A stretch of 63,880 nt of DNA from a virus: the IMG/VR virus record IMGVR_UViG_3300022833_000010, positions 1 to 63,880 of that record, one strand, 5' to 3'. The notes below the pieces were generated by a model. The model made no database searches. It was not told where the DNA came from and saw nothing but the letters and a program-made list of their open reading frames with translations. This document shows positions 15,422 to 57,683 of the stretch, piece by piece (the first letter of the stretch is position 1; every line of letters starts with the position of its first letter). Position numbers and translations under genes: made by a program.

Positions 15422-15423
15422 TT

Positions 15424-21247: not shown

Positions 21248-21584
21248 TCACTTCTCCAGTTTTTACTAAGTCTCTTAGCATAGCTGCGGCTTCTAACGAA
21301 GTAGCTCCCCAAGCCCAGTCATTATCAGAATTTGGTTCTCCAATTTTTGATGCTGTTTCTGAATCTAGCTCAAAGTGGTTTTCAATAGCTAAATCATAAT
21401 GAGTACCTGAGTATGGGTATAGATACCTAATGTGTCCACCAATACAGGCAGCTGTTCCACAAGAATGTGAATCAACAGGGAGATCACGTTCCATGTCAAA
21501 CCCTAGAAGAAGGTTTCTTTTATTTTCTAGATCGTTTAAGTTTTCAAGGTATTCGGCAAACTCAATAATATTTTCAACGTTCAT
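21225..21584 (-). CDS. Hypothetical protein with CGTAxCIGG motif, paralogue 2
   Basis: 119 residues. FDMERDLPVDSHSCGTAACIGG and a C-terminal GEVNWKKLHT match the gene at 2927-3301 in layout. See the open stretch 21140-21247 for a possible lost C-terminus. Overlaps the deoxyribosyltransferase-like gene by 4 nt. Function unknown. Confidence 0.68.
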   Translation of the reverse strand: MNVENIIEFAEYLENLNDLENKRNLLLGFDMERDLPVDSHSCGTAACIGGHIRYLYPYSGTHYDLAIENHFELDSETASKIGEPNSDNDWAWGATSLEAAAMLRDLVKTGEVNWKKLHT

Positions 21585-23877: not shown

Positions 23878-23936
23878 GTTATTTCTTCCTAATAGGTTTT
23901 GTGTTTGGATTATGTGATCGGAATTGAACACTTATA

Positions 23937-23956
23937 ATCATTATTTGCGGGTATTT
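23937..23956 (-). promoter_or_regulatory. Putative phage RNA polymerase promoter, copy 3
   Basis: Identical 20-bp copy beginning beside the stop codon of the gene at 23957 and ending 59 bp before the SSB start. It is the first such site after the T7-like polymerase gene, so the polymerase would switch on SSB and the replication block as soon as it is made. Confidence 0.75.
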
Positions 23957-24214
23957 TTATTCCTTGTAATCAAGGTACTTTTGGTATTGCTCGTCAGTAA
24001 TTTCTACTAAATAGTCTCCGTAATCTTCCTCGTAAAGCTCTGAATAAAATTCAGTTTCATCTTTTGAAACCATAGTACACACTCCTTCGAAACCTTTTTC
24101 TCCTAGAAGTACTCCTATCACTTTGGCTTCGTTAACTTCATCTTCATAGTGTATTTTTACATAAACATTTTTTTCAAGCAAAAGCGAAATCTGATTCAAT
24201 GACTTTAGAAACAT
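23957..24214 (-). CDS. Small acidic hypothetical protein
   Basis: 85 residues. Starts 41 nt inside the RNA polymerase gene; AAGGAAAC just upstream of the ATG supports this start. Acidic C-terminus (YSELYEEDYGDYLVEITDEQ). A small acidic protein encoded directly after the polymerase could modulate an RNA polymerase, as T7 gp2 does with the host enzyme, but nothing in the sequence proves this. Confidence 0.62.
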   Translation of the reverse strand: MFLKSLNQISLLLEKNVYVKIHYEDEVNEAKVIGVLLGEKGFEGVCTMVSKDETEFYSELYEEDYGDYLVEITDEQYQKYLDYKE

Positions 24215-26510
24215 CTAAGTTTCCTTTCTCTGGGATTAAATGTAGAGCGTCCATCTGACTAAAGATATGCTCTAAGGGTTCTTGTTCGTAAAGTTCAACG
24301 AACTTGTATCTAACATTCATAAACAAGTGGTTCATGTTACCAGCATGGCAACCGAAAGAGTCGTGTACAACTGTAACTTGATAATCAGAATCGTGTACAA
24401 CCATAGTTACGTGAACAGCATCAACACTGTGTACAACATTTGGAGCAGTTGATTGCTTTTGTTTAACTTTGTTTAGTTCTTCTGTTTTCCTTAAACTTAC
24501 ACTAATACGGTACATAGTTTCACCGCGATACAGCTCTACCTGTTTTGTCTTAGTCTCTACATAGAGTTGTACCATAGGGAAGCCTGTGATAACCTGATCA
24601 TAAGATACATGCTTCCCTTTTTGATTTTCAGATACACCGAGCTTCTCAAACATTTCTAACATGTCTGATGGTCCTTTTAGTTCTTTCTTACAAGTGCTGT
24701 AGATTAAGTGGCCTAAGAAAACCGACCAAGAGTAGTCCTTATCACGCAAGTAATCAGAAAGACCACGAGTGTCGTCTTCTACCATATCTACCATACCGTG
24801 TTGAGTACCGCCATAACCGAGTGTCATAACGGGTCTTTTTACACCTTTACGCCAGATTTTACGGTCTTTTACGTTATGCCAAAAAACAGCACCCATTTGT
24901 TTCTTTAAGTCGTAAGTTTGGTTTTTGTATTCTCTTAAGCGAGCTACTGCGTTACGGTAAAGTTCAGAATTACTATTATTACTAAGTTTAGAAATTTCTA
25001 ACTTTAAACTTACTAACGTTTTGAAAACCTTATCAAACTGGTCTGATACTTTCTTTGGTGTCTCTTTTGCTTTTTCAGCAACTACTTCAATTACCTTATC
25101 TGCAATAAACATGTAGACATCCCCCGGAAGTTCTTGAGGTACTAAGTTTACAAGCGGAGCTACATTTTCATCCTTAGACATGGCAGCTAGGTGCTGAACG
25201 CCGTTATTGCTACCGTCGATGTAGATCGGCAGGTTAGAGGGGAAGTCCTCTATGTCTAAGCCTTTGTCGTTTACCCAGACGTTTATTAGAGAAAGTTCGT
25301 AACAGCAAGCCAAGAAGCACAAAGGTTTGTCCGCGTCCATCCAACCATCATTCTCAAGAGGATCTTCTACATAACTTAAATACGTGGACCAGTTTTCTAT
25401 TACAAACTCTGAGCGATCAGCTAGAGTAACTTTGTCGTTACCTAGCATGTTAGCGGTGTGAACTGTGAGCCAGAACATACCATCTTCACCTAGCGTTACA
25501 CTTTCATCTAACAAGAGTAAACCTTTTGCGTTGTCAGAAGATTGTTCGTGCAAGAAGGCAGTGTTAGGATAAATTCTACCGCGAAAGTCGCAGTTGTACA
25601 AGTGGTAGAAAGGATCAAACTGATTTCTTTCTGCTAACCTTTCAATAGCAGCAAGTTCAATTAACAAAGAAGCCTTCTTTTCTGGATCAACTTCTTTCAT
25701 AGCCTTAAAAGGTGTTTTACCTTGGTGTGTCTTTGCCTTCTTAAACACATCGAAAATAAAAGGATTGATCCTCCAACCTACATCACCTAGCTTATTTAAG
25801 GCTTTTACGACGTAATCCATTTGACCTTGTTTTACTTTCTTGATTGCGTCTTGATGAGGTTTTTTCTTGATAATCGGAAAACCAGTGTTGTGAAAGAACT
25901 TTCCACTTTCCCAGTGATCTGGTTTACTACGCATTGGAAATAACTCAACACTATCAATGTCGATTGTTTCCATAATAGAATGAAGTGCTTCAATGTTTTT
26001 TACATTTACATGGTAAGAAGTGTGCTTTTTCTTTCGACCTCCTTTGTTACTACCTACTTTTAAACGTAATGACAGTATCTCTAAATCGAGATAAGCTTGA
26101 AACAAAAACCATGCAAGATGCACTTCTTTGATTTCTACTTTGTTTGATTCTTCTTCTAGTTTTAACTTGCAGTTAGGCAGACCTAGTTTATTGTGAGTTC
26201 CAATAAAGAACCTTAGTTCTTTTAGTTCTGTGTTATCATCATTAACACTTTCTCGCTCAAGCACCTTTACTTTTTTACGTAAGTTCCTAAACATAGCACC
26301 CCCAACGCTTGATAAGGTGTTAGCTAACTCACTTTGCCTTTCTAAGTTTGTAAGAACATGTCCGTAGGTTAGAGTGATGAGTTCTTCTGGATCAAACTGA
26401 TAAAGGATCCAAGCTTTGTTTCTCGTATCTACCTCACTTGATTTGTTTGTTTTCATTAATTGGAGTTGTTGTTGTGTGAGGTTTTCACAGAGCAGCCCCA
26501 TAGTGTTCAT
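24174..26510 (-). CDS. T7-like single-subunit RNA polymerase
   Basis: 778 residues (T7 RNAP is 883). Motifs in order: DFRGRIYP (308-315), motif A IDGSNNGVQHLAAM with Asp432, motif B KRPVMTLGY (Lys558 to Tyr566, the same 8-residue spacing as Lys631-Tyr639 in T7), APNVVHSVDAVH, and motif C VVHDSFG with His716 and Asp717. The N-terminal domain is shorter and diverged. It should transcribe the middle and late genes from the 20-bp promoters. A terminator and a TATAAT box precede it, so host or virion polymerase probably makes its mRNA. Confidence 0.95.
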   Translation of the reverse strand: MNTMGLLCENLTQQQLQLMKTNKSSEVDTRNKAWILYQFDPEELITLTYGHVLTNLERQSELANTLSSVGGAMFRNLRKKVKVLERESVNDDNTELKELRFFIGTHNKLGLPNCKLKLEEESNKVEIKEVHLAWFLFQAYLDLEILSLRLKVGSNKGGRKKKHTSYHVNVKNIEALHSIMETIDIDSVELFPMRSKPDHWESGKFFHNTGFPIIKKKPHQDAIKKVKQGQMDYVVKALNKLGDVGWRINPFIFDVFKKAKTHQGKTPFKAMKEVDPEKKASLLIELAAIERLAERNQFDPFYHLYNCDFRGRIYPNTAFLHEQSSDNAKGLLLLDESVTLGEDGMFWLTVHTANMLGNDKVTLADRSEFVIENWSTYLSYVEDPLENDGWMDADKPLCFLACCYELSLINVWVNDKGLDIEDFPSNLPIYIDGSNNGVQHLAAMSKDENVAPLVNLVPQELPGDVYMFIADKVIEVVAEKAKETPKKVSDQFDKVFKTLVSLKLEISKLSNNSNSELYRNAVARLREYKNQTYDLKKQMGAVFWHNVKDRKIWRKGVKRPVMTLGYGGTQHGMVDMVEDDTRGLSDYLRDKDYSWSVFLGHLIYSTCKKELKGPSDMLEMFEKLGVSENQKGKHVSYDQVITGFPMVQLYVETKTKQVELYRGETMYRISVSLRKTEELNKVKQKQSTAPNVVHSVDAVHVTMVVHDSDYQVTVVHDSFGCHAGNMNHLFMNVRYKFVELYEQEPLEHIFSQMDALHLIPEKGNLDVSKVIESDFAFA

Positions 26511-27433: not shown

Positions 27434-27447
27434 TTCATTATAGAGGG
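27434..27447 (-). promoter_or_regulatory. CCCTCTATAATGAA motif, copy 1
   Basis: The minus-strand sequence is identical over 14 bp to copies at 30052-30065 and 30429-30442. It contains a perfect -10-like TATAAT, and a GATAA/TTATC hairpin lies just upstream. All three copies lie in gaps of the same block and precede small genes. Confidence 0.5.
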
Positions 27448-27467
27448 TGATAATTTCTCAGTTATCT

Positions 27468-29785: not shown

Positions 29786-29802
29786 CAAAGCCCGTACAAT
29801 TA
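29786..29802 (-). repeat. TAATTGTACGGGCTTTG intergenic motif, copy 1
   Basis: Minus-strand 17-mer. Matches copies at 30467-30483 (17/17), 39806-39822 and 57667-57683 (opposite strand, 15-16 of 17). Here the site also contains TGTAC/GTACA inverted arms. It is 24 bp upstream of the ART-like start. Confidence 0.55.
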
Positions 29803-30020: not shown

Positions 30021-30065
30021 GTTGTTCTCCATTTGGGTTATTTGATGTTTCTTCATTATAGAGGG
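30021..30065 (-). promoter_or_regulatory. 45-bp leader repeat with TATAAT box, copy A
   Basis: 44 of 45 bases match copy B (30398-30442). It includes CCCTCTATAATGAA, an AT-rich spacer, and the GGAG ribosome binding site of the next gene. Directly upstream a hairpin GGGG/CCCC (GGGGAAAAACGCCCC) ends at the TATAAT box. Looks like a duplicated promoter-plus-leader; a hairpin abutting the start region also recalls N4 virion polymerase promoters. Confidence 0.55.
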
Positions 30066-30093
30066 GCGTTTTTCCCCACTTTTATCAACATTT

Positions 30094-30397: not shown

Positions 30398-30442
30398 GTT
30401 GTTCTCCATTTGGGTTATATGATGTTTCTTCATTATAGAGGG
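30398..30442 (-). promoter_or_regulatory. 45-bp leader repeat with TATAAT box, copy B
   Basis: Second copy of the repeat at 30021-30065, preceded by GTGGGGGTTTTTGGCCC, which can form a GGG/CCC hairpin ending at the TATAAT box. Placed just below the terminator at 30504-30527, so it is well positioned to start the early transcript. Confidence 0.55.
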
Positions 30443-30466
30443 CCAAAAACCCCCACTTTTTTAGCA

Positions 30467-30483
30467 CAAAGCCCGTACAATTA
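30467..30483 (-). repeat. TAATTGTACGGGCTTTG intergenic motif, copy 2
   Basis: Identical 17-mer to copy 1 on the same strand, 25 bp upstream of leader repeat copy B and 21 bp below the HNH terminator. Confidence 0.55.
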
Positions 30484-30498
30484 CCCAACAATTTGATA

Positions 30499-30527
30499 AA
30501 AAAGGCCACCCCAATTAAGGGATGACC
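30499..30527 (-). terminator. Terminator at the end of the structural gene block
   Basis: Minus-strand GGTCATCCC (30527-30519), AATT-type loop, GGGGTGGCC (30512-30504), followed by U residues (A run around 30498-30503). It stands 7 bp below the HNH gene stop. Nearly the same hairpin follows the SSB gene. Confidence 0.75.
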
Positions 30528-30533
30528 ATTAGT

Positions 30534-30884
30534 TTATTTTTTAGCAGGTCTTGGTTTAGGTTTAACTTTCGCTACAGTAGGTTTTTTCTTAGCCCACGAT
30601 TTCCTATTCAAGTTATTTTGAGACCGTGTGGCAGGCTTCAAATTAGAAGCTTTGTTGTCAGAACGATCTCTGTTTTTGTGATCTAGCTCAGTAGTAACTT
30701 TTTTACCAGTTGTCATTTCTTTAACAACACGGTGTACGTAATGAGCTTTTCCGTTTACACGAACGGTCTTATACCCGTCTCCATGACTCGTGCCAGCCTC
30801 GGAACCCGCAGCCTTTCGACCGCGAGCCTCCTTCCAGTATAGTTTTCCATCTTTCTGCTTAAAAAGCTTTTTCCACTTTTGCAT
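30534..30884 (-). CDS. HNH homing-type endonuclease
   Basis: 116 residues. HNH_3-like: VHRVVKEMTTG, ELDHKNRDRSDNKASNL (His/Asn residues of the ββα-metal fold) and ATRSQNNLNRKSW, with a basic C-terminal tail (KPKPRPAKK). An N-terminal GY-TVRVNGKAHYVHR segment is typical of phage freestanding HNH genes. Its start shares a base with the tape measure stop. No flanking split gene is visible, so it is probably a freestanding mobile endonuclease. Confidence 0.85.
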   Translation of the reverse strand: MQKWKKLFKQKDGKLYWKEARGRKAAGSEAGTSHGDGYKTVRVNGKAHYVHRVVKEMTTGKKVTTELDHKNRDRSDNKASNLKPATRSQNNLNRKSWAKKKPTVAKVKPKPRPAKK

Positions 30885-33800
30885 TAGCGACCACCTCTCT
30901 CACGGTTAGTTGCGTTTACACCACCAGTAATTTGAGGAATCATCTTGACAATCTCTTTACGAGTTTGACGACTGACGTCACCAGTAACATTAATGTTGTA
31001 AACTTGCTGTTGTGATTCTTTTTGGCCGTTGTTCATGTTAGCAACTGCATTTTTAGAAAGAACCATTTCTCCGGGCATTAGCATAGCTGGTACGGAGTCT
31101 TTACCTGCTTGTGAGAAAGACGTACTTGGTACAGTACCACCTTGAGCCATACCGACTCCACCGAAGAAGCCAAGTATAGAGCTAAATATACCACCTCCTG
31201 CACCGGAGCCTCCTCCGCCACCTAGATTAGAAAAGAAGCCTGATATGCTTTCACCTAATCCAGAGAAAAGACCTGAGAGGGTCGACCCGAGAGATTCAGT
31301 TATCCCACCTTCTCCGCCGTTACCAGCAAGACCTTTTGTAATACCACCTTCAACAGTTTCACCAACTTTTGAACCGAAGCCAAGAACACCTTCAAATATA
31401 CCACCCAGAGATTTACCTAACCCACCTTCGGGGCTAAACAAAGCAGTAGTAAAACTTTCAGAAAAAGCGTTGATAATATTTGAGCTGAAACTATCTGCTA
31501 AGTCAAGTAAGAAACCTTTAGCATCACCTGTCATTAAGAATGTTGAGAATGCGTTTTGAAAATCTCCTTGGAAATTCTCTGCGTAACTTTCTGCGATCTC
31601 TTCAGGTGTTTTTGCAGTATCCTTTTTCTTACTCTTGCTTTTATCATCACTTATACTACTTGAAGTGTTAGAACTTTCTGTAGAAATGTCACTAATGCTA
31701 CTAGTAGACGATAGTCTCGCCCTAGCGAGTAAAGCATCAATTGTGGCAACATCGCCGTACTCGTTCCTACTTACGGCTCTTGCACGGGCGGATTCTAGAT
31801 CAGCAATATCTCCTGATAGTCCACCTCCAGCCAACATTTTAGGCATAATACCTGCATTGACTTTGGCCATAAAGTCTGGGCCGAATTTGCTGACAGCGGA
31901 CGCCTTCATTACAAACTCACCATTAGAGAGCATAGCAGGGATTTCGTCCGAAGTACCTGTTCCCTTGCCATTCACAGCACCACCAGAGTTGAAGCCACCA
32001 ACATCTAAAGGTAGTAGGCTATTACTAGGGGTAAAAGTAGGAGCAGCGACTACACTAGATTTTTGTACTTGAAGTATACCTGAAGACAAGTTATCTAATC
32101 TGTTAGTAATTTTCCGAATGGCTTCTTCAAACTCGCCAATTGCAGAGCTGTTTAACATACGACCAAGTAGACCCAGATCTGAAAGTCTATCCAACTCGTC
32201 TTGCCAAGATTCTAAAGCTGCTTCAGATTGAGCAATTGTCATAGAATTTAAGGAAGAAGTTTCAAGGTTAGCAATAAGTGCTGAGTTCAGAGGGTCGTTG
32301 TTTATATCTCTGTTGATAGCGTTGGTATTACGATCACTAACTGTACCTGTGGAACCTGTCAGTAAATTTACCGGTAAGTTGATTACTTTCTCAACAGTTC
32401 CCGCAATTAAATCTCTTAGTTTTTCTGATAACTCACTTTCAGAAGTTAGTAGAAATACACTGAGACCTATTGCCGCAGCAGCTAATACTGCAGGATTTGA
32501 AATTAGAGCGAAGATACCGCTCCTAAGCTGTTTCAAAGCTTCCGGACCTTTTAATCCTTTAAAGATCCTTTTAATTAATCCAGAGCCTAGCCTAAGTAGA
32601 CTAGCGGATAACCCCGGTGTAATTAAAAAAGCACCTGCAATTAATACGAGGGCTGTTGCCAGTTTATCGGAGAATTCACTATTAAAATCTTTTCCGAAGA
32701 AACCATCAACAAAACCACTTCCGATAGAAGATGCTATGTTTTTAATACCTTCTATTACGTTAGCAACAATATCACCTTCACCAGAAAGAGCATCTTTTAA
32801 TGCCTTACCAAAACCTCTTGCAACTTTATTGATAGCAGCTAAGAATTCCTTATCATTGCCAAGCACGTTTGCTGCACTTAAGAACGCACCAGCTAATGCC
32901 CCTTTAAGTACAAGCTCTCTTATTGAACGCTTTAGTGCAATACCTAGAGCAACCGATATCGCAGCTGCTAACTGATCGCTATTGGCATTAAAATATTCCT
33001 CTGTATTTGCTATAATATTGTCGAAGGATTCTGTGACACTTTCAGCTATTGCTATAGCACCAATAACAAGAGGTGTCTTCTTTAATAAGTCTAAGAAAGT
33101 ATTATAGTAATCGGAAGAAAAGTCAATTGCTCTCTGGAAACTATTTCTTATTTCTTCAGAAAATGGGAGGTCAATTCTGCCACCAGATTTCAAATAAGTA
33201 TAGTCTCCAAAATAATCCCAAGCTTCAGTCATCGAAGATAAAGTGGAAGACCAAGCCTCTGCTAGACCGTCAGTGATTGTTGTTTTCAAACCACCTCTAG
33301 ATTCTATTTCGACAAGCATGTCTTTATATTCTGATACAACTTTTTTGTTTAAGTTGTTAAAGACTTCAATTATCTTAGCACCCCACGCTTTTAATTGGTC
33401 TAAGGGTTTATCTAAGAATGTCTTTAAGCTAGACCCGACTGATAAGGATTGTCCTGCTTCCATGTGAGAAGGGTCAAAAATACCAGTCCACAAAGAACGA
33501 CCAACAACACGATCCCAGATTTCGTAAAAGATTGCAACAACGTTATCTTTAAACCTTGTCAACCCTGAAATAGCACTAGAGAAGCCAGTGAATATCTTGT
33601 CTGACAGATCAACTTGAGTTATAGCAGTATCCATAGGGATATAGCCAGACTCGCGTCTCCACATGTTTTTAACTACGTCTTTTATTTCTTCTACAGTAGC
33701 GATTACGTTATTCTTAGAATTAGCCATAGCAGACTGTATACCATCTAAGAACTTAGAAGCATCTATCTCGTCTGTAAACAATCCGGATATATCATCCATA

Positions 33801-34699
33801 ACATCTTGGGCAAAGTACTTTACATCAAGTCTAAGAAGTGTTAACCCAATTCTTGCTCTTAATGCCCATTCTTCTATGTTTTGTCCTAAGAAGTTTACAG
33901 CCTTAGTTGAAGATATAATTGCTTTCTTTACTAAGTCAGAAACCCCAATAACCTTATCCATGTTGGCTAAAGCACGAGTCCAAGCATCACCGAATACAGT
34001 AGCTAATCCTGCTACAGTCGCGTCAAGTGTGCCAAACTCGGAATTCATCTCATCAGCACCATCACGGATAGCATCAAAGACAGCTTCTGCAGTTAGTAAA
34101 CCGTCTTCAGCCGCTTCTCTCAGTTTCCCAAAAGGGATACCCATACCATCTGCAATAGCTTGGGCTAAACGAGGCATACCTTCTAGTACTGAATTTAGTT
34201 CTTGCCCTCGTAACTGGCCAGAGGCCAAACCCTGTCCAAGTTGGATAATAGCAGACTTAGCAGTTTCGGCAGCAGAACCTGAGAGTACGGCGGCTTGTTG
34301 TACAGCTTCAGTTACTCTTAGCAACTCTTTGGTTGAACGCCCTGATCCTTTTAGGGCTAAACCAAATCTGTTAAAGGTTTCAGCCGCTGCATCTACACTA
34401 CCACGAGATCTTGCGGAAATAGCAAATAGTTCTTTTAAGACTGCGTTAGTTTTAGTAATGTCTCTAGTTACTAGATTAACACGGTTGCTGAAGTTAGTCA
34501 TAGAGTCAGCGGCTCTTGTAATACCTTTTACTACGATTGTTGCAGAAAAAGCAGCTGTCAATCCAATAGCCATTTTTTGAAAGCTATTAGTTAACCTACT
34601 TGTTCTTACGTCTAGATTAGTTATGGAGCGTTCTAGTTTGCTCATTTCTCTTGTGGCTTGGCTAGCGTTAGCCTTTACCCGAATTTCTACTCCACTCAT
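30884..34699 (-). CDS. Tail tape measure protein
   Basis: 1271 residues from ATG 34699, preceded by AGGAG; the open frame to 34768 runs through a terminator and is rejected. N-terminal coiled coil (QATREMSKLERSITNL), a tape-measure core (about 80-260: SAETAKSAIIQLGQGLASGQ, GMPRLAQAIADGMGIP), several hydrophobic segments in the middle, and two C-terminal copies of a GG...S/DxxPAMLxxGExVxxxxAV motif. It sets tail length, predicting a tail of roughly 190 nm by the usual 1.5 Å per residue rule. Largest tail gene; behind its own terminator. Confidence 0.93.
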   Translation of the reverse strand: MSGVEIRVKANASQATREMSKLERSITNLDVRTSRLTNSFQKMAIGLTAAFSATIVVKGITRAADSMTNFSNRVNLVTRDITKTNAVLKELFAISARSRGSVDAAAETFNRFGLALKGSGRSTKELLRVTEAVQQAAVLSGSAAETAKSAIIQLGQGLASGQLRGQELNSVLEGMPRLAQAIADGMGIPFGKLREAAEDGLLTAEAVFDAIRDGADEMNSEFGTLDATVAGLATVFGDAWTRALANMDKVIGVSDLVKKAIISSTKAVNFLGQNIEEWALRARIGLTLLRLDVKYFAQDVMDDISGLFTDEIDASKFLDGIQSAMANSKNNVIATVEEIKDVVKNMWRRESGYIPMDTAITQVDLSDKIFTGFSSAISGLTRFKDNVVAIFYEIWDRVVGRSLWTGIFDPSHMEAGQSLSVGSSLKTFLDKPLDQLKAWGAKIIEVFNNLNKKVVSEYKDMLVEIESRGGLKTTITDGLAEAWSSTLSSMTEAWDYFGDYTYLKSGGRIDLPFSEEIRNSFQRAIDFSSDYYNTFLDLLKKTPLVIGAIAIAESVTESFDNIIANTEEYFNANSDQLAAAISVALGIALKRSIRELVLKGALAGAFLSAANVLGNDKEFLAAINKVARGFGKALKDALSGEGDIVANVIEGIKNIASSIGSGFVDGFFGKDFNSEFSDKLATALVLIAGAFLITPGLSASLLRLGSGLIKRIFKGLKGPEALKQLRSGIFALISNPAVLAAAAIGLSVFLLTSESELSEKLRDLIAGTVEKVINLPVNLLTGSTGTVSDRNTNAINRDINNDPLNSALIANLETSSLNSMTIAQSEAALESWQDELDRLSDLGLLGRMLNSSAIGEFEEAIRKITNRLDNLSSGILQVQKSSVVAAPTFTPSNSLLPLDVGGFNSGGAVNGKGTGTSDEIPAMLSNGEFVMKASAVSKFGPDFMAKVNAGIMPKMLAGGGLSGDIADLESARARAVSRNEYGDVATIDALLARARLSSTSSISDISTESSNTSSSISDDKSKSKKKDTAKTPEEIAESYAENFQGDFQNAFSTFLMTGDAKGFLLDLADSFSSNIINAFSESFTTALFSPEGGLGKSLGGIFEGVLGFGSKVGETVEGGITKGLAGNGGEGGITESLGSTLSGLFSGLGESISGFFSNLGGGGGSGAGGGIFSSILGFFGGVGMAQGGTVPSTSFSQAGKDSVPAMLMPGEMVLSKNAVANMNNGQKESQQQVYNINVTGDVSRQTRKEIVKMIPQITGGVNATNRERGGR

Positions 34700-34718
34700 A
34701 GTGGTTCTCCTATATAAT

Positions 34719-34766
34719 AAAAAAGCCCCCGATAGTATCCTACATGTTGAGGAAGCCATCAGGGGC
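34719..34766 (-). terminator. Terminator in front of the tape measure gene
   Basis: Minus-strand arms CC/GG-rich: 34766-34756 (GCCCCTGATGG) pairs with 34735-34725 (CTATCGGGGGC) over 11 positions, a smaller TCCT/AGGA hairpin in the loop, then six U residues. It separates capsid and tail-tube genes from the tape measure gene and would reduce tape measure expression. Confidence 0.8.
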
Positions 34767-34776
34767 AATTTAACTA

Positions 34777-37870: not shown

Positions 37871-38989
37871 TTATGTGTGGAAGATTGGCAGAATGCCGAG
37901 GTTCAGTGCGTCCATCTTACGGTCGTAAGAAGCAGCTGCGCCCATTGTTGCGTTGGTTGCGAAAGCAGAAGTCGAACCTGCCCAGTCGTAACCCATTGGG
38001 TGGTTTACATAGCCCCAACGATACCAAACGTTAGTCGAACCGCCACCAGTGTAGGAAGCCGCATTGCGGTCAACTTCAACAGGTGTAGGCATTACGAGTG
38101 CTGTTGCAGCAACCGAACCGGGTTTAATAACAAAAGAACACTGTGTTGATTGTGCGTTCAGGTCGCCGGACGCGAAGCCCGATGCCATTTGGTTAGCACG
38201 TGTCATAACGAGGCGGAACTTGCCACCAAAGATTGTTGAGAACTCAAGGTTCCCATCTTTGATACGGTCTTGGTCAACCAAGTTTGCCGCGCGCATTTCA
38301 GCCATGATTTCTGGGCTTGTTGCCAAGTACATGAAATCTGGTTCGTAGTCTTTGAAAGCTGCGCCAATCGAACGGAACAAACGCTCACCACGAGCAGCGG
38401 CAATACCAGACGCGTCGAAGAGTTTACGTGCGTCGTTAGCACCAGTTGCAGCAGCGCCGTGAAGACCTTCTGCGTTTACGTCAACAAAGAAGCCAGTTGC
38501 GGCTACGTCTGCGTCTGTATCAAAAGCGATCATGCCGCCGTTGCCGGAGCCACCTTTGTCACCGAGAGTAACTTCGCTAAGTGCGACACCTTTGAGAACT
38601 GCCAACAGAGCGTCATGCTCATCTTGGGCGCGGACTTCAGCAAAATCACGGGCAATCTTGGCCAGACCGTCTTGCTTCGAAACAACTTCTTGCATGTTGA
38701 CTTGCTCTGCACCGAAGGTACGAACAGTCTTAACGAAGTTGGCAACGTCTGTTGCAACGCTTGTATAGGTACCATCAGTAGCCGAAGACAAAGACGCAAC
38801 GTTTACTGTGGCGCTCAGTGGCTTGTACCAGCGGAACTGACCAACAAACGATTCACCAGAAACGTCGATCTTTTGATCGGAAGTGACAATGCCTGTACCA
38901 TTCAGCTTTTTAGCAGAGGTATAAGCTTCATCGGAGTAAGCAGAAATTGCGAGTGCAATGTTCTGGAAGTCTGTATTTGTAATAGGCAT
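37871..38989 (-). CDS. Major capsid protein
   Basis: 372 residues, directly downstream of the scaffold gene. Features of an HK97-type coat protein without its own propeptide: long helical segment with acidic/basic mix (QVNMQEVVSKQDGLAKIARD), a central Gly/Ala-rich domain and a C-terminal region (VWYRWGYVNHPMGYDWAG) typical of this coat family. The gene is visibly richer in G+C at third positions than neighbours, a common sign of strong expression. Confidence 0.85.
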   Translation of the reverse strand: MPITNTDFQNIALAISAYSDEAYTSAKKLNGTGIVTSDQKIDVSGESFVGQFRWYKPLSATVNVASLSSATDGTYTSVATDVANFVKTVRTFGAEQVNMQEVVSKQDGLAKIARDFAEVRAQDEHDALLAVLKGVALSEVTLGDKGGSGNGGMIAFDTDADVAATGFFVDVNAEGLHGAAATGANDARKLFDASGIAAARGERLFRSIGAAFKDYEPDFMYLATSPEIMAEMRAANLVDQDRIKDGNLEFSTIFGGKFRLVMTRANQMASGFASGDLNAQSTQCSFVIKPGSVAATALVMPTPVEVDRNAASYTGGGSTNVWYRWGYVNHPMGYDWAGSTSAFATNATMGAAASYDRKMDALNLGILPIFHT

Positions 38990-39024: not shown

Positions 39025-39732
39025 TTAGACATTAAAGTTACCTAGCTGGCCTTTTGCGGCTTGAGCTAGAATTTCTTGCGTAGACATTTCCATAATGGAC
39101 TTGCTTACATCGGTGTTAATTTTACCGTCATTGTTATTTGTCCCGCCGCCAGTATTAGACTTAGTACGGAACAAGAAAGAGTTGCCTTCTTCTTTTGCAT
39201 AGGCGGCAGTGTAGTCACGAATACTAGTACCGCCAGTGTGTGACCAAGAACCATCTTCGTTTTGAACGAGTTGGTCTACAATCTCACGTCGAGCCATATC
39301 TCTTGACTTATCGTTTCGGAAATCCATTCCTGAGAGTGCATCGTTGAGGACACCGTCCCGTTTGAGTTGTGTAGTTTCAGTAGCGTATTCTGCAAGACGG
39401 GTACGAGCTTCAGATAGCTCAAGTTCGAGTGCTTCTTGTACTTTACCTTCTTCTTTCATACGGGCAATAGTCGCTTCTTTGGCTGCTTTCTCAGCAGTCA
39501 CCTTATCTTTCAAAAGACCATCGCGTTCAGTAGCCATTTTATCCATGTTAGCTTTCATCTTAGCAAGACGTTCTTCAACGATTGCTTCGAGTTCTTCTTC
39601 AGGTGTTTTTGGTGTCTTGTCGCTTTCGTCTTCCTCATCTTTAATTCGTTGCGCTTCAACTTCTGCAGCGAGTCGTTCGACTTCTTTTTCAGCAGCGAGT
39701 TTGTCGTTAGCAGCAATTTCTTCAGGTGTCAT
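39025..39732 (-). CDS. Capsid scaffold protein
   Basis: 235 residues. Long charged coiled coil (about 1-135, e.g. ATERDGLLKDKVTAEKAAKE), Lys/Glu/Ala-rich, with a Gly/Asn linker (NTGGGTNNNDGK) before a short C-terminal helix that would contact the coat protein. Standard scaffold architecture and position just before the major capsid gene. Confidence 0.85.
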   Translation of the reverse strand: MTPEEIAANDKLAAEKEVERLAAEVEAQRIKDEEDESDKTPKTPEEELEAIVEERLAKMKANMDKMATERDGLLKDKVTAEKAAKEATIARMKEEGKVQEALELELSEARTRLAEYATETTQLKRDGVLNDALSGMDFRNDKSRDMARREIVDQLVQNEDGSWSHTGGTSIRDYTAAYAKEEGNSFLFRTKSNTGGGTNNNDGKINTDVSKSIMEMSTQEILAQAAKGQLGNFNV

Positions 39733-39805: not shown

Positions 39806-39822
39806 TAATTGTACGGGCCTTG
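39806..39822 (+). repeat. TAATTGTACGGGCCTTG intergenic motif, copy 3
   Basis: Same motif as at 29786 and 30467 with one change, but on the plus strand. Flanked by GTAAT/ATTAC arms so the site could form a short hairpin. Lies in the 104-bp gap between the MuF-polymerase stop and the scaffold start. Confidence 0.5.
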
Positions 39823-39836: not shown

Positions 39837-42800
39837 TCAGGGGCCGATGCCGTACCAGTCATTTCCGGGACGGATAGCTTCAACAATTTCAGAAGGAGTA
39901 ATCTTATTAACAGGGTCAATAAGTCCGTCATCTTTTGCGCGTTGTAAGTATAGTTTATAAGTCTTGTTTGAAAGACCAGCCTTGCGCATTGCTGCGAGGG
40001 TTTGTTTAATAGTACCTTGTTCTAGAGCATTTGCATAGATCTGTCTCAAGGCAAATTTAGCGGGAACCGCCTTACCTAAGTTTGTGAAGAAAGCATCGTG
40101 GATAGTTCCAGTTTCCACGTTATTCTTCGCGCCCCATAAGTGAAATTGTCGGACAATTACAGCATCGTTACTGTGATTACCGTTAACACCTAGCCCAATG
40201 GAAGCTTCTTGAATGGACTGTTGGGATGCAAACTTGTCATCCTTACTCGGTGCTTCGTATATGTTGAAGACTTTTTGATCTGTAATTGGATCTTTAAAGT
40301 CTATTCTTACTTGTTCCTTTACACGGTAACGTTGTAACATGGTTTTACCATCGAACGTAACCCAAGGAATATCTACTGATCCCGACTCTTTTACAAAGTC
40401 TTTCGCAATATCTTTCCAGAAGTTAATAAACTTACCAGTAACAGGAACTTCCTTTTCCAACTGACGTGACATAATTGCTGAAATCTTAGCGAATAAACGA
40501 GTACCTACAAGGTCTCCTGTTTCATCGGTTAGCTTCATTAAAAATGTGTGCATGTCTTCGGAGTTCTTCATACCTTCTCTAAACTCTGACCTTGCGGTTT
40601 CATAAAGAGAGTCGGTTATAGAGTTACCTTCTTTCGAGGCAGCTACTACTTGTTTCTTGATGTCTCGTAATTCATCAATACGAGTCCAGTTTTTTCTGTC
40701 CATTTCGAAGCTAATCTTAGCATCGATAGCGGCTTTAAACTTATCAACTTCTTTTGTTGAAATTGCAATCTTACCTTTCTTTGCTAGAACATCGGCAAAC
40801 TTATTAGCTACGTTTGCAGCTTTAGTTGCGTCTCCGGCACCATAAAAGGCAACCATGTTTTGATTCTTGGCAGCTTTCATAAGGTCTGTCCAGTTAAGAT
40901 CGAGATCAGCCAACTCAGGGATAGCTAGAAACTCAGGATCGTCAACTGTACGTTTTGCAATTTCATCATAAAGTCTTTGTTTCTTAGAAGTCTGAAGTAC
41001 ATTAGATAGTTCACCTGCAGCACGATCTCCTGTAGACAAGGAAATGATTTGAGCGCCAGAAGAACTAGCATCATTTTCAATCATCATCTTTGTTTTGTAT
41101 TCAGAGATTAGTTTTAAATCATCAGGTGTCCACTTAGACTTGTCAATTAACATTTTACCACCCATATGTCTATGTATACGGGTGTATTCTAATGCTAGTC
41201 GAGCGAGTTTACCTACTTCTTTTTCTTCAGTAGCTGCTACTAGTGGGTTAGAAAGAAATTCTTTGACTCTTCGATCAGGCTGAGTTGAACTCAACATATA
41301 ATCTCCGATTTTTAACAGGTTGTCTTCTTGCTCTTTAAAGGCATTAAGTCTTCCTTTTAGTGTCAAAGTGTCTAAAGGACTCCCCACCAAGGCACCAATC
41401 TGAACTTGAAGTTCTTCTAAGGCGTCCGCATCAATATTGTAAGCTTTGGCAGTGTTCAAGAAAGGACGTACAGCTTCACCCTTTGTAGGTGTTAGTAGCC
41501 CACGGTGATACACTCGACCACGAAAGTCAATAGAGGCGTCTACAGAGAAAGCTTGGTTACGTTGACGATGATACTTAGCTGTTGCTAAAACACCACGACC
41601 ATCATTACCACGAGACATAAAGAGTTTCTTCCACTCGTTCATATCATCCCACTTTTTAGCTTCACCACGTTTGTCGTTGAAGTAAATAACTCTTTCTGCG
41701 AAGTCAAAATACTCACTATCAACTTCATACTTAACTGAAGTAGCGTGGTTCAACATTGTAGAAATATCTCTGTCAATTTGATTTACATCGTAATCGGCAT
41801 AAACCTTTTCAGAAACAACAGGCATAGTGGTCTTACGGCCTCTGGCATCAAAGTACTCTTTACTTCCAGCCCTAGCATAAATCTTATCTCTAGGATGATA
41901 AATGCCAAAACGTCTAGCTGTTCGTGCTTTTTCAGCAGCAATTTGTAACTGACGCATAGGGCCGTTTACAATAGTAAGTTGCCGAGATACACTAATACCG
42001 CGTAATGCCTTATCACTAACTGGTCTACCTGTTTCTAAGTCAATAGGCGAAGAAGTACCAATATCTCTAAGAGTTGTTGTCCGTATCATTCCTTGCTTCT
42101 CAAGAGAGTTTATAACTCGGCTTCCGTCCTTGTGGAAGTCTTTAAGAGATTTAGAGCGTAACGGGTTCAGAGAACCTAACTCTTTATCAAACATTTGTCC
42201 AATCTTAATAGCAAGAAGATCATAATCGGCACCATCTGCTGTAGCAATAGCTTCCATTGCTTTTGCAGTAGCCTTGATAGTCTTCTCTTTTAAGTTGTCT
42301 AAAGCAAGTTTACGGTCTCTATTGTATAAAAACTCTAAGTCTAGAAATTCTCTAGCTTTGCCTCTAACATTTGAAATCTGCGAAGTGATCCAGCTGTCTG
42401 TTGGAGGTTTTGTTTTAAACAATTCTTTTATGTTTTTGCGTTTTGTTTCACTTACAAACAAATCTAAAAGCTTTTTAACAAGCTCCTTACGATTTGGGTA
42501 CAACTTGATAATTGGTTGAGTGTAAGCTGCTAAAGGCGCTTTACCATTAAAATAAGATTTCTTTGCTAACTTAGCTCCGTACTTACCTCTCCAAGTTTCA
42601 ATATAGCGATTATCTGCAATTTGACTATCTACAAGTTCAGAAATGGTATACTTTTTACCAAACAAAAATACTTCAGGATCATCTGCTAGTTTTGCAGTCA
42701 AGTTCCCAAATAGCTTACCGCGATCTGTTGATCGGTTAAACATTAAAGTACCTAAGTCTTGCACAGCATTGATAGTGAACTTTCTCATTACAGAAGTTGG

Positions 42801-44276
42801 TTTACCCCAAGGCTCACCACTAACGTTAGAACGAGTAAATGTTTGTCGAAGAACGTCAGTAATAACCGATCGTTGATTAATAGAAACGTCTCTGCCTAGA
42901 TCTGAAACAAAGTCTTTAATAAATTTCTTTTGAGCAAGTTCTAAACCTTCGCTATCCTGAACTCTTGCGAGCCTTTCAGTAAGAATGTCTGGTTCTTGTA
43001 CTTGAAGGTGACGACCTGCATTACTTGTGTAGTCTGTACCACTAGCAGACATAACCGAGCCTTCTCGACTGTTCTTAAAAGAACGTCTGCTACCTTGCTT
43101 TTGTGAAAGAGAGTTGCCTTTAAAATCAGTCAAAGCCAAAGCTTGAGCATTTTCTGCTGCGTCATTCTTAAAGTGATCTAGCAAGGCGGATCTATTTGCT
43201 TTAGACTCCATTAGTTCTTTAGGGTTAGAAAATCTTAAAGTCGTATTGCTATCGTTGGTCGAAGTAGGGCGCTTAATAGTTTGATTTGCTCTACGCATTA
43301 ACCCCATAATAGAAAGTGCTTTGCCTTCTGGAGAAACAAACTCTGAAGCTTCTAACTTACCGTCTTGGAATAGTTTAGCTTGACGCTCACCACCTAACAT
43401 TTTAATCTGTACGTTAGATCCTTGTGTACGCAGCCAAGCGGAGTAAGTTCGAATAGCTGGCATTATACCCGTTAGTTCTGAAGGGTGTATTTTTTCTAAG
43501 TTCCTAGGTTTTACGTTAGCTAAAGGAAGACTTAATAGTTCCTCTTGACTCTTGATTACAGGAACCATTGTTGATCGGCACTGCCAGTGCAAAGGAGGTT
43601 TGAACCTCTCGTCACCAATATCATAAACTTTACCGTTGTGATAAGAGCATACAGCGCTTGTTCTACCATCTAGGATCGCAGTAAACATAAACCCACTGAT
43701 CAAGTCAGAGTTTGCAGACATAACGCTATTCAAGGCGTTCGTTTGTGTTGCTGTAATAGAGGTTCTAGTTAAAGTACGTGCCTGATGTTCTGTAATCTTA
43801 GTTGTTTTTAAAACATCATCGATAATTTCATCAGGTGTTAACCCTTTAGCAAGTCCACCTTTTACTTTAGTTTGAATACGGACTAGTTCACCAGAAGCAA
43901 TGTTTTTAACATTACCAGAAAGAGACTTAACACCTTTAATCTGAGGGCCAGTAATCTCAAGGAGAAGGTCTTTAGTCTTTGGTTTTTGAAGTCTATAGAA
44001 GTTTTTCACTTCTGCGTTTAAGTTATTTGTGTGGAAAACAGTCTGGGAGTTGCTAAAGTCTAGCATACTCTTAACGTTGTGATCATTTAATTCTTTAGCA
44101 AAACGAGTTACCTCGGGTTTGACATTAGACCTCAAGTTTCCTTTTAGAAGGTCTCTAAGGTTAAACCTGTGTTTTTTAAGAATTGTATTATTCTTCGCTT
44201 GGACTCCGTTTTCGTATAAACGTACATCACCGCTATGGTCAACAATACGGTCAAAGATCTTTTCGTTAATAGACAT
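39837..44276 (-). CDS. MuF head protein fused to single-subunit RNA polymerase (putative virion RNA polymerase)
   Basis: 1479 residues. Residues about 165-240 are a MuF (SPP1 gp7) domain: RTSITATQTNALNSVMSANS, then FTAILDGRTSAVCSYHNGKV and FKPPLHWQCRSTMVPV. Residues about 340-880 are unassigned and helical. The C-terminal part shows the T7/N4-type polymerase series: DFRGRVYHRG (917-926), motif A NDASSSGAQIISL (Asp1069), motif B KNQNMVAFY (Lys1137 to Tyr1145, T7 spacing), and motif C TIHDAFFTNL (His1393, Asp1394). All catalytic residues are kept. Gene order portal-MuF-scaffold-capsid says it is a virion protein; MuF proteins bind the portal. Likely a packaged polymerase ejected with the DNA for early transcription (inference). 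Confidence 0.88.
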   Translation of the reverse strand: MSINEKIFDRIVDHSGDVRLYENGVQAKNNTILKKHRFNLRDLLKGNLRSNVKPEVTRFAKELNDHNVKSMLDFSNSQTVFHTNNLNAEVKNFYRLQKPKTKDLLLEITGPQIKGVKSLSGNVKNIASGELVRIQTKVKGGLAKGLTPDEIIDDVLKTTKITEHQARTLTRTSITATQTNALNSVMSANSDLISGFMFTAILDGRTSAVCSYHNGKVYDIGDERFKPPLHWQCRSTMVPVIKSQEELLSLPLANVKPRNLEKIHPSELTGIMPAIRTYSAWLRTQGSNVQIKMLGGERQAKLFQDGKLEASEFVSPEGKALSIMGLMRRANQTIKRPTSTNDSNTTLRFSNPKELMESKANRSALLDHFKNDAAENAQALALTDFKGNSLSQKQGSRRSFKNSREGSVMSASGTDYTSNAGRHLQVQEPDILTERLARVQDSEGLELAQKKFIKDFVSDLGRDVSINQRSVITDVLRQTFTRSNVSGEPWGKPTSVMRKFTINAVQDLGTLMFNRSTDRGKLFGNLTAKLADDPEVFLFGKKYTISELVDSQIADNRYIETWRGKYGAKLAKKSYFNGKAPLAAYTQPIIKLYPNRKELVKKLLDLFVSETKRKNIKELFKTKPPTDSWITSQISNVRGKAREFLDLEFLYNRDRKLALDNLKEKTIKATAKAMEAIATADGADYDLLAIKIGQMFDKELGSLNPLRSKSLKDFHKDGSRVINSLEKQGMIRTTTLRDIGTSSPIDLETGRPVSDKALRGISVSRQLTIVNGPMRQLQIAAEKARTARRFGIYHPRDKIYARAGSKEYFDARGRKTTMPVVSEKVYADYDVNQIDRDISTMLNHATSVKYEVDSEYFDFAERVIYFNDKRGEAKKWDDMNEWKKLFMSRGNDGRGVLATAKYHRQRNQAFSVDASIDFRGRVYHRGLLTPTKGEAVRPFLNTAKAYNIDADALEELQVQIGALVGSPLDTLTLKGRLNAFKEQEDNLLKIGDYMLSSTQPDRRVKEFLSNPLVAATEEKEVGKLARLALEYTRIHRHMGGKMLIDKSKWTPDDLKLISEYKTKMMIENDASSSGAQIISLSTGDRAAGELSNVLQTSKKQRLYDEIAKRTVDDPEFLAIPELADLDLNWTDLMKAAKNQNMVAFYGAGDATKAANVANKFADVLAKKGKIAISTKEVDKFKAAIDAKISFEMDRKNWTRIDELRDIKKQVVAASKEGNSITDSLYETARSEFREGMKNSEDMHTFLMKLTDETGDLVGTRLFAKISAIMSRQLEKEVPVTGKFINFWKDIAKDFVKESGSVDIPWVTFDGKTMLQRYRVKEQVRIDFKDPITDQKVFNIYEAPSKDDKFASQQSIQEASIGLGVNGNHSNDAVIVRQFHLWGAKNNVETGTIHDAFFTNLGKAVPAKFALRQIYANALEQGTIKQTLAAMRKAGLSNKTYKLYLQRAKDDGLIDPVNKITPSEIVEAIRPGNDWYGIGP

Positions 44277-44379: not shown

Positions 44380-44455
44380 TGGCTCTCTGTCTTGGAATCG
44401 AACCAAGCAACAGCTGATTAACAGTCAGACCGCACACCTTGTGCGCTACAGAGAA
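44380..44455 (-). tRNA. tRNA-Asn (GTT)
   Basis: Minus strand: acceptor TTCTCTG/CAGAGA, D-arm GCGCACAAGGTGTGC, anticodon loop CTGTTAA with GTT, T-arm CTTGG-TTCGATT-CCAAG, and an encoded CCA (44382-44380). The first acceptor pair and the D-stem are imperfect, but the anticodon arm and T-arm are canonical. Decodes AAC/AAU. Confidence 0.85.
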
Positions 44456-44475
44456 TATTTTATTAATGTAATAAT

Positions 44476-44552
44476 TGGACCGCGCAGTAGGACTCGAACC
44501 TACAACCTAGACTGTAGAAGAATCTTGCTCTATCCATTTGAGCTATGCGCGG
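44476..44552 (-). tRNA. tRNA-Arg (TCT)
   Basis: Acceptor CCGCGCA/TGCGCGG fully paired, TA at positions 8-9, anticodon stem AGATT/AGTCT around CTTCTAC (anticodon TCT), T-arm GTAGG-TTCGAGT-CCTAC, encoded CCA. Reads AGA, a codon common in this AT-rich phage but rare in many hosts. Confidence 0.92.
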
Positions 44553-44556
44553 TTAG

Positions 44557-44632
44557 TGGTTCTGCAACGAAGGTTCGAACTCCGGACATCTTCATTACAA
44601 GTGAAGTACTCTACCAACTGAGTTATTGCAGC
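44557..44632 (-). tRNA. tRNA-Thr (TGT)
   Basis: Acceptor GCTGCAA/TTGCAGA (first pair mismatched), D-arm with AGTTGGTA loop, anticodon stem CTTCA/TGAAG around CTTGTAA (anticodon TGT), T-arm CGGAG-TTCGAAC-CTTCG, encoded CCA. Decodes ACA. Confidence 0.9.
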
Positions 44633-44756: not shown

Positions 44757-46331
44757 TTACATATCTTCCATTGTGACCTGTGATTCCTGTGAGTTAGGAT
44801 TTGCTACTAAAGGATCAGTTTGAATTGACTTTGTAGCTTCTTCATCATTATAGTCAGCTGGAAGAAAATCATTAAACTTAGCAATTGTAACGAAAGTATT
44901 ACGATCAATAACGCCGGACTGATACCACTCAGCTACCAAGCGCATTGCGCCTTCACCACCAACAGTAGCAGCAAAGTCAGAAGAAAGTTGAAACTCAACA
45001 TCATTACCTGTCAAGTCAGTATCATACTTCCAGTTTATCATAAAAGCAATAATCTCTTGCATAGTACCGGAAATCTTAGCGTTAAGAGTACCTAGCTGTG
45101 CAGTTTGAGAAGCGTTACGAATCTCTAAAGCAATACCTGAAGCAGCTTGTTCTGGGGACAACATTCGAATACCCATCTTAGCCATTTCACCAACTGTAGC
45201 TTCGATAGCCCGATCCATGTCTGCAAGCGCACCAGTAGGTGTTTCTAAAACAGTAATAGATTCATCTTTACGAACTCGTAGCCAAGAACCTAGACCTGCA
45301 TCACAGAGCTTGTCAAATTCTTCATCTGTCATATCAGATTGAACAATTGGTGTGTAAGTGGCAGCGCCCATCAAAAGGTGATTACGGCGAGATACTTTAT
45401 TGTAAAGAGCAACTTCTCTGTCAATCAAAGGCATAAGTACAGGCTCTACGGCATCTAGTTGACCATTAAGCGGCCAAGCTGGAATTCGAGTTAATCGTTT
45501 ACCAAACTTCATAGGAAACTTGGTGTCATACTTAGAAAAACCACCATCAGCAGAGTCAGCATATTCTTGAGAAATTTCTCCGTTGAGTGCTTCTACTTGC
45601 TGACCGCCTCCTGATTTTTTGTAATAATCAAGAACTAAAAGACCTTCTTTGTCAAGATAGTGATCACAAACAGTATCAACATAATTAGGGTGCCAAGGGT
45701 TATCAGAATTATATTCTTCAGAAATGTATCTAGTGACTATTCGACTGAGAGTTTTGACTCTTGTAACAGGATGAGTATTTAACTGTACGTTAATGACATT
45801 CTCTGCTTTAATCAAAACAGGATAAGGTGCAATCATGTTTCTAACTTCAGGATCCATGTTTTCTAATTCTTCATCAGATACCGTTGGTCGGTCAACATAA
45901 ACCCAAGCACGAGAAGTTTGAAGCTCTTCCCAAATAGCAGCATCTAAGAAGTTAAACAAAGAAGCACCGTCTAAAGTAATGTCTTTTGTCAACCAGTTTT
46001 TTGCACTATCATCAATAAAATCAGGAAGTTCTAAAGAAGAAGGTTTACGCAGTAATGCGCTAATCAAAACCCTTGCATACTGAGTAGTCAAACCCGGAAG
46101 TTCAGCTTCAGCTTTATAAAAGTCATACTGTGCAGTAGTCATACTTGGAGAGAAGGGTAGAAGCAAGTTACTGTAATCGTGCTTTAGCAAGTCATCATGT
46201 GCTTTAGCATTAGCTTCTCCTTGGAGAATTGCGCGTGCCTTCTTCCAAAGTGGTTTCATAGACAAGTAAGCTGCAGAAGGCGTTTCTACTCCACGTTTAG
46301 TTGTATTAGCTGCTGTTTTAATTAGAGCCAT
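44757..46331 (-). CDS. Portal protein (DUF4055 type)
   Basis: 524 residues. The N-terminus (AAYLSMKPLWKKARAILQGE), FLDAAIWEELQTSRAWVYVD and the long C-terminal helix (EQAASGIALEIRNASQTAQL) match DUF4055-family portals. The dodecamer forms the DNA channel at the capsid vertex, and the MuF protein encoded below would bind it. First gene after the tandem promoters at 46494 and 46626; tRNA genes separate it from the MuF-polymerase gene. Confidence 0.85.
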   Translation of the reverse strand: MALIKTAANTTKRGVETPSAAYLSMKPLWKKARAILQGEANAKAHDDLLKHDYSNLLLPFSPSMTTAQYDFYKAEAELPGLTTQYARVLISALLRKPSSLELPDFIDDSAKNWLTKDITLDGASLFNFLDAAIWEELQTSRAWVYVDRPTVSDEELENMDPEVRNMIAPYPVLIKAENVINVQLNTHPVTRVKTLSRIVTRYISEEYNSDNPWHPNYVDTVCDHYLDKEGLLVLDYYKKSGGGQQVEALNGEISQEYADSADGGFSKYDTKFPMKFGKRLTRIPAWPLNGQLDAVEPVLMPLIDREVALYNKVSRRNHLLMGAATYTPIVQSDMTDEEFDKLCDAGLGSWLRVRKDESITVLETPTGALADMDRAIEATVGEMAKMGIRMLSPEQAASGIALEIRNASQTAQLGTLNAKISGTMQEIIAFMINWKYDTDLTGNDVEFQLSSDFAATVGGEGAMRLVAEWYQSGVIDRNTFVTIAKFNDFLPADYNDEEATKSIQTDPLVANPNSQESQVTMEDM

Positions 46332-46470: not shown

Positions 46471-46493
46471 CCCTTTAATTAGGGACACCTACT

Positions 46494-46513
46494 ATCATTA
46501 TTTGCGGGTATTT
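46494..46513 (-). promoter_or_regulatory. Putative phage RNA polymerase promoter, copy 4
   Basis: Identical 20-bp core, with transcript leader containing the CCCT/AGGG hairpin and the paired 21-bp repeats, 163 bp before the portal start. Confidence 0.75.
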
Positions 46514-46625
46514 ATTCTTGATAGAAATAAGGTCGTCAGGGTGAGAATTAACCCACCCTAACTAGATGTATTCCGGTCATCTTGAAGACAGAGAAGCTGT
46601 CAGACTTGAGAGCCTGCTTCACTGT

Positions 46626-46645
46626 ATCATTATTTGCGGGTATTT
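46626..46645 (-). promoter_or_regulatory. Putative phage RNA polymerase promoter, copy 5
   Basis: Identical 20-bp core one base below the endolysin stop, 132 bp upstream of copy 4. The tandem pair would give the capsid and tail genes the strongest late transcription. Confidence 0.75.
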
Positions 46646-57666: not shown

Positions 57667-57683
57667 TTATTGTACGGGCCTTG
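57667..57683 (+). repeat. TTATTGTACGGGCCTTG intergenic motif, copy 4
   Basis: 16 of 17 bases match copy 3 in the same orientation. Flanked by CTTATT/AATAAG arms (57666-57671 and 57691-57696). Lies six bases below the fibre gene stop. Confidence 0.5.

Follow-up and report, generated by a model that had tools for sequence, protein, structure and literature searches.

A close described counterpart of the locus analyzed here is the virion RNA polymerase of phage N4 (gp50, Schitoviridae), in which a single-subunit RNA polymerase (RNAP) and a virion part are joined in one polypeptide that is proposed to be injected with the DNA and has a second phage RNAP gene as its early target. At 3500 aa, gp50 differs from the present protein in the domains that flank its polymerase, and its promoters are single-stranded hairpins (PMC12633501; PMC5512222). 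According to one account, packaging of a single-subunit RNA polymerase is a feature of the N4 family alone (PMC12633501), and when packaged multidomain phage proteins were surveyed in 2017, such RNAP modules were found only in N4-like phages or prophages (PMC5512222). A second point of comparison is provided by SPP1 gp7 and the MuF-toxin fusions, in which MuF is encoded beside the portal gene, with C-terminal cargo (PMC6316719; PMC5512222); SPP1 is the precedent for association of MuF with the portal (PMC6316719). The RNA polymerases of T7, SP6, and R8W, by comparison, are free enzymes made post-infection, and in the T7 record the polymerase gene sits behind a host promoter.

The window, i.e., the whole stretch of DNA that was analyzed (IMG/VR record IMGVR_UViG_3300022833_000010; 63,880 nt, possibly incomplete), encodes a 1479 aa protein (39837-44276, minus strand) that combines elements of these systems and is hereafter termed MuF-RNAP. 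The first-pass annotation had proposed a MuF head protein fused to a single-subunit RNA polymerase, and this was confirmed by Pfam, PHROG, and AlphaFold2/Foldseek analyses. The reading frame begins with ATG and has no internal stop, and the opposite strand is stop-rich. As expected for a MuF-family gene, it lies between the genes for the portal protein (44757-46331; phrog_145, E 3.8e-47) and the head scaffolding protein (39025-39732; phrog_206, E 1.1e-8), with the major head protein beyond (37871-38989; phrog_247, E 5.3e-24), all on the minus strand. The MuF domain was identified by Pfam (PF04233, Phage_Mu_F; E 4.8e-10, 40.6 bits against a cut-off of 29.6) at residues 134-237 (43566-43877, minus strand); the domain itself had been anticipated, with boundaries (approximately 165-240) that do not hold. 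Residues 1-354 also match the PHROG head morphogenesis category (E 1.2e-49). The predicted structure of this half (pLDDT 71) has no PDB match, so the MuF assignment depends on Pfam and PHROG.

The remainder of the protein has the profile of an RNA polymerase, with a match to Pfam RNA_pol (PF00940) at residues 1057-1429 (E 7.3e-7; 28.8 bits against a cut-off of 22) and to PHROG RNA polymerase phrog_414 (E 5.2e-25) in three stretches, the best of which is 1058-1167. An AlphaFold2 model of residues 340-1479 (39840-43259, minus strand; pLDDT 77.8, pTM 0.73) is predicted to adopt the right-hand polymerase fold of T7-type enzymes, and its best PDB match is T7 RNA polymerase, the comparison that had been proposed as a check (Foldseek E 6.6e-18, probability 1.00; TM 0.35-0.55 across the entire multi-domain chain; identity in the structural alignment ∼14%). 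Because phmmer, run with the full-length protein, retrieved nothing from the PDB sequences, and the sole match of a profile search was N4 RNAPII at an E of 0.1, the evidence for the fold rests on the profiles and the AlphaFold2 model.

The DxRGR motif and motifs A, B, and C, shared with the T7, SP6, and R8W polymerases, are all present on the minus strand, in T7-type order and at exactly the residues first reported: DFRGR at 917-921 (41514-41528; DWRGR, 421-425, in T7), motif A, DASSSGAQ, at 1069-1076 (41049-41072; D537), motif B at K1137...Y1145-G1146 (40839-40868; K631...Y639-G640), with the same Lys-to-Tyr spacing as in T7, and motif C at H1393-D1394 (40095-40100; H811-D812). A profile alignment pairs R919/R921, D1069, H1393, and D1394 with T7 R423/R425, D537, H811, and D812 and misplaces motif B; this motif is placed by alignment to the R8W phage RNAP, in which K1137, M1141, Y1145, and G1146 correspond to K494, M498, Y502, and G503. 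The catalytic residues, including the motif A Asp, are invariant in 36/36 distinct full-length fusions, and the region equivalent to the T7 specificity loop (∼1313-1343; 40248-40340, minus strand) is conserved throughout the MuF-RNAP family.

Compared with N4 gp50, MuF-RNAP is a shorter protein that has a MuF carrier and none of the N4 flanking domains, and by profile it is nearer to the T7 type. Of the matches foreseen for the two halves, MuF and RNA_pol were recovered and an N4 mini-vRNAP match was not (hhalign probability 0.3%, E 0.21, not significant). Its cargo, a polymerase serving the phage, also differs from the host-acting toxins or effectors of MuF-toxin fusions.

A search for the same fusion in other phages, as had been suggested, identified 88 related loci in IMG/VR as well as the fusion genes of the cultured roseophages DSS3_VP1 and DSS3_PM1 (Naomviridae) and of EBPR siphovirus 1; a scan of genome contigs found no relative. 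In ∼40 full-length relatives, MuF and RNAP are kept in one reading frame, interrupted only by self-splicing-type introns, and in three fusion genes group I introns occur, all at one place in motif B (codons 1141-1143). The dN/dS ratio is ∼0.1 in all parts of the gene, indicative of purifying selection. MuF-RNAP, with its complete, conserved polymerase of the T7 type, is thus carried by long-tailed phages of the sea that form a widespread group. The fold, the catalytic residues, the position between portal and scaffold, and the retained fusion agree with each other and support a virion RNA polymerase carried by MuF.

The window also encodes a second, free T7-like RNA polymerase (RNAP2; 24174-26510, minus strand), for which the first reading as an ordinary T7-like enzyme was clearly borne out (Pfam RNA_pol E 3.1e-76; PHROG 8.3e-131). 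A free RNAP2 is present in the genomes of fusion-carrying relatives as well, but was not found, nor was the class E motif described below, in the partial record of EBPR siphovirus 1; both results count against the two-polymerase mechanism proposed below. An hhalign comparison of MuF-RNAP with RNAP2 was not significant, and there is thus no sign that the fusion was copied from the phage's own RNAP2.

Two classes of promoter-like sites occur in these genomes. Class E (GTGRG-N9-SCMTCTATAAYGA) is found family-wide, mostly between the tape measure gene (30884-34768 in the window, from Pfam/PHROG searches) and the RNAP2 gene; a motif scan of the window located sites at 30430-30456, 30053-30079, and 27435-27461 (all minus strand), the third with a weaker upstream half. 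Directly before the first lies a terminator-like hairpin (30504-30527, minus strand), in a region where the hairpin count is not above chance. A DNA-only scan of IMG/VR with the N9 pattern returned 100 loci, and 78 of the 80 examined belong to the MuF-RNAP phage family. The class E subtype tracks the MuF-RNAP clade, a match that common descent alone could produce. Class L (ATAS-N7-TWAWGA) has five copies in the window, with none expected in shuffled sequences: a pair upstream of the portal and MuF-RNAP genes (46625-46644 and 46493-46512), and single sites upstream of an ssb-like gene (23936-23955), upstream of an exonuclease gene (14123-14142), and near the left end (1054-1073), all on the minus strand. 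Class L sites also lie upstream of ssb and of portal-MuF-RNAP in the relatives, and the class L core differs along with the RNAP2 specificity loop. The best reading of these patterns is that MuF-RNAP may recognize class E and RNAP2 class L.

Taken together, these observations suggest the following mechanism, for which we infer the steps of packaging, ejection, and catalysis, and the assignment of enzymes to motifs. The N-terminal MuF part would bind the portal and bring the protein into the procapsid, and the T7-type polymerase (residue ∼340 onward) would exit with the DNA. Within the cell, MuF-RNAP would initiate at the class E promoters upstream of the RNAP2 gene, and RNAP2 would next read the class L promoters of the replication genes and of the portal-MuF-RNAP-capsid operon. 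Because RNAP2 would drive that operon, the virion enzyme would be made late and packed into progeny. The two-polymerase cascade advanced in the first-pass annotation is supported by this layout, in which class E sites stand ahead of the RNAP2 gene and class L sites ahead of replication genes and late genes, the fusion among them; the cascade may also be independent of the host RNA polymerase, which may nevertheless be used elsewhere in the genome. We consider this explanation, as a whole, to be likely: most likely, the fused polymerase is packed into virions, enters the cell together with the DNA, and turns on the RNAP2 gene without the host enzyme.

The host RNA polymerase could instead read class E as a sigma-70 promoter and make RNAP2, with the injected MuF-RNAP serving another step, such as transcription-driven DNA uptake or a boost to early expression. 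Class E does carry TATAA(T), and most sites have TATAAT directly; however, a −35 box is missing at the distance expected of one, a sigma-70 scan makes no call, in some phages every class E site has TATAAC, and conservation over ∼27 bases, confined to the MuF-RNAP phage family, would be needless for a general host factor. We therefore regard this explanation as unlikely. An N4-like hairpin reading of class E was also considered: GGG/CCC can pair in one clade, but the GTGAG...GCATC of the other cannot, and no stem is shared by both, so this reading was dropped. If class E is indeed the MuF-RNAP promoter, having no conserved hairpin would set it apart from the N4 promoters.

It is less probable still that the fusion stays un-ejected, with the polymerase acting only inside the producing cell or being cleaved from the adjoining MuF. 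SPP1 virions are able to form without gp7 (PMC6316719), which is compatible with this view, but the single frame kept among relatives argues against it, and with a free RNAP2 already in the same genomes, a second RNAP would have to act elsewhere or at another time. That the polymerase part is decayed or has a structural role only, as the low identity to T7 RNAP and the modest Pfam score might suggest, is highly improbable given the invariant catalytic residues, the purifying selection, and the introns placed in motif B.

The features that would be new are N4-like logic on a MuF carrier and its occurrence in a siphovirus lineage outside the N4 group. It is probable, if somewhat less firmly so than the mechanism itself, that packaged single-subunit RNAPs arose at least twice, the marine siphovirus version being a MuF-mounted T7-type enzyme ejected through a long tail, with a two-step program and an early promoter of its own. 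If true, this would constitute a second packaged-RNAP design on another carrier, available in the cultured isolates DSS3_VP1 and DSS3_PM1; it would raise the questions of how a polymerase crosses a long tail and how early promoters are selected without host factors, and would provide new promoter-polymerase pairs as well as a function for genes labeled just "minor head protein".

DSS3_VP1 and DSS3_PM1 encode two enzymes for dU-DNA, a dCTP deaminase and a dTMP phosphatase (PMC12697855), and whether a packaged RNAP suits altered-base DNA of this kind would be a further question. Unlike in those phages, no deaminase and no phosphatase of the YfbR type were found in the 63,880-base window, which may be an incomplete record, so dU-DNA is unlikely as a general reason for a virion polymerase. 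Given the shared gene order and the dU-DNA enzymes not found, we call the phage of the window a relative of the Naomviridae and do not count it as a member. The MuF-type protein of DSS3_VP1 and DSS3_PM1 (Noahvirus) is the same gene, with 43.7% identity over 100% of its length, and is labeled only "minor head protein-like" in their records. These phages also resemble the window in late-gene order, RNAP2, and the layout of class E and class L motifs, and ∼30 DSS3_VP1 proteins have matches in the window, mostly collinear.

The MuF-RNAP open reading frame (39837-44276, minus strand) is genuine and runs without interruption in the window, encoding 1479 residues. The first-pass annotation had proposed that a MuF head protein is fused here to a single-subunit RNA polymerase, and both parts are confidently recognised by family profiles: a head-morphogenesis family across residues 1-354, the MuF family at residues 134-237, and a T7-type RNA polymerase family in the C-terminal part, above its curated cut-off. 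The polymerase motif positions listed there proved exact on re-check, and the structure prediction it called for, of the C-terminal half, has T7 RNA polymerase as its first PDB match (E 6.6e-18, probability 1.00), followed by mitochondrial RNA polymerases. This AlphaFold2 model covers residues 340-1479 (30-sequence input; pLDDT 77.8, pTM 0.73). Among viral models, it matched a homologue of the size found in the DSS3 roseophages and many T7-like RNA polymerases, as well as N4-type virion RNA polymerases (near 1e-10). Profile alignment with T7 pairs D1069 with D537, R919 and R921 with R423 and R425, and H1393-D1394 with H811-D812; alignment with the R8W phage polymerase additionally places K1137 and Y1145.

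MuF-RNAP is a family rather than a lone case, as a survey of other phages, also suggested earlier, established. By tblastn, the cultured roseophages DSS3_VP1 and DSS3_PM1 carry full-length homologues (43.7% identity, 100% coverage), and EBPR siphovirus 1 has a match in three pieces. A scan of IMG/VR, where many contigs are fragments, returned 88 relatives, including at least about 40 full-length fusions. In 36 distinct full-length fusions aligned, the motif A Asp, the motif B Lys and Tyr-Gly, and the motif C His-Asp never vary, and dN/dS is ∼0.1 in each of the MuF, middle, and polymerase parts. Two relatives' loci (L001 and L068) and EBPR siphovirus 1 have the gene broken at one shared place inside motif B, between codons 1141 and 1143, by group I introns with Rfam matches (L001:13410-13700; L068:13488-13842) or, in EBPR siphovirus 1, an intron-like match below Rfam's cut-off (L006:23179-23405). 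Because group I introns prefer strongly conserved sites of important genes, this placement fits a working active site. The phages sharing this codon are distant from one another, and EBPR gp48, an HNH endonuclease, is sited in the gap of its MuF-RNAP gene.

In the window, DSS3_VP1, and DSS3_PM1, MuF-RNAP sits between the portal and scaffold/major capsid genes. Since entry of gp7, the MuF protein of SPP1, into the procapsid is directed by the portal protein (PMC6316719), and delivery at infection has been proposed for MuF-toxin fusions (PMC5512222), the polymerase should, by precedent, be present in the virion. Three tRNA genes (Asn, Arg, Thr; 44380-44632, minus strand) lie between portal and MuF-RNAP, and the DSS3 phages keep a single tRNA-Asn at the equivalent place.

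Two promoter-like motif families were delineated. Class E (GTGRG-N9-SCMTCTATAAYGA) has three copies in the window, between the tape-measure gene and that of RNAP2, the second, free T7-like polymerase (24174-26510, minus strand), and relatives are arranged likewise. Matrices built for each genome without that genome recover these sites, with reverse-strand maxima of at most 8.3 bits; one relative (G006) has weaker sites only, and DSS3_VP1 has a third site (16 bits) elsewhere. A DNA-only scan of 2.9 million IMG/VR contigs returned 100 stretches, and among the 80 examined, 78 came from the MuF-RNAP phage family: 38 had the site upstream of RNAP2 and on its strand, and 40 had family genes nearby. 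The other two were unrelated. Two parts of the motif covary (AG with GCA 90 times, GG with CCC 29 times, GG with CCA once), the subtype tracks the MuF-RNAP clade on every contig showing both, and the MuF-RNAP specificity loop is conserved family-wide, as class E is. A sigma-70 scan did not call class E, copies of which read TATAAC in another relative (G001). From this family specificity, clade-matched subtype, conserved loop, sigma-70 result, and TATAAC form, we take class E to be most plausibly the promoter for the putative virion polymerase, although it shares its phylogeny with the rest of these genomes. The window also holds four copies, in both orientations, of a 13-base motif, GCCCGTACAATTA (29790-29802 and 30471-30483, plus strand; 39806-39818 and 57667-57679, minus strand), two lying near class E sites; similar strings adjoin class E in relatives.

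All assigned window genes run on the minus strand, as do five intergenic copies of the 20-bp class L sequence, AATACCCGCAAATAATGATA (chance expectation, none): a tandem pair upstream of portal and MuF-RNAP, and others upstream of ssb, upstream of the exonuclease gene, and close to the left end. Versions particular to each relative stand at corresponding places, with the common form ATAS-N7-TWAWGA. Like N7 cores pair with like RNAP2 specificity loops (14 distinct pairs, judged by eye and uncorrected for phylogeny); e.g., the core is GGGCGGAA where the loop has KTVKL, and CCTGAC where it has KRTELKYG. Class L is assigned as the candidate promoter class of RNAP2.

In the proposed model, MuF-RNAP would enter together with the phage DNA and initiate at class E, yielding RNAP2, which would then initiate at class L to produce replication and late proteins, MuF-RNAP among them. 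N4 shares this plan of a virion polymerase followed by a second phage polymerase, but here the carrier differs (MuF) and the enzyme is more T7-like. The profile searches envisaged in the first-pass annotation gave the MuF and RNA_pol-type matches, whereas N4 mini-vRNAP gave no significant profile match to MuF-RNAP. Because of this result, the different architecture of N4 vRNAP, and its description as unique to N4's family (PMC12633501), MuF-RNAP is placed outside the N4 vRNAP family, and we propose that it works, by analogy, in a similar way. We found no description of the fusion in the literature searched, which did not cover the Naomviridae description (doi 10.1016/j.cub.2021.05.014); in GenBank, the DSS3 proteins are labelled 'minor head protein-like'.

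Several other minus-strand genes of the window were noted. The large terminase gene (61878-63845) comprises two reading frames separated by a group I intron (62832-63099; Rfam RF00028, E 9.3e-18), and is also split in DSS3_VP1 and unsplit in DSS3_PM1. The product of 15029-15496 is possibly an anti-restriction protein, as it weakly resembles a family of phage S-adenosylmethionine lyases (E 2.2e-5, short of the curated cut-off), and a nucleoside 2-deoxyribosyltransferase-like protein (21581-22024; Pfam E 8.3e-9) may alter nucleotide pools. Judging by its domains, the ribonucleotide reductase (8167-10038) appears B12-dependent, in contrast to the annotated alpha and beta subunits of the DSS3_VP1 enzyme. 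A ClpP-like protein matching phage head maturation protease families is encoded at 6484-7110, distant from the head genes.
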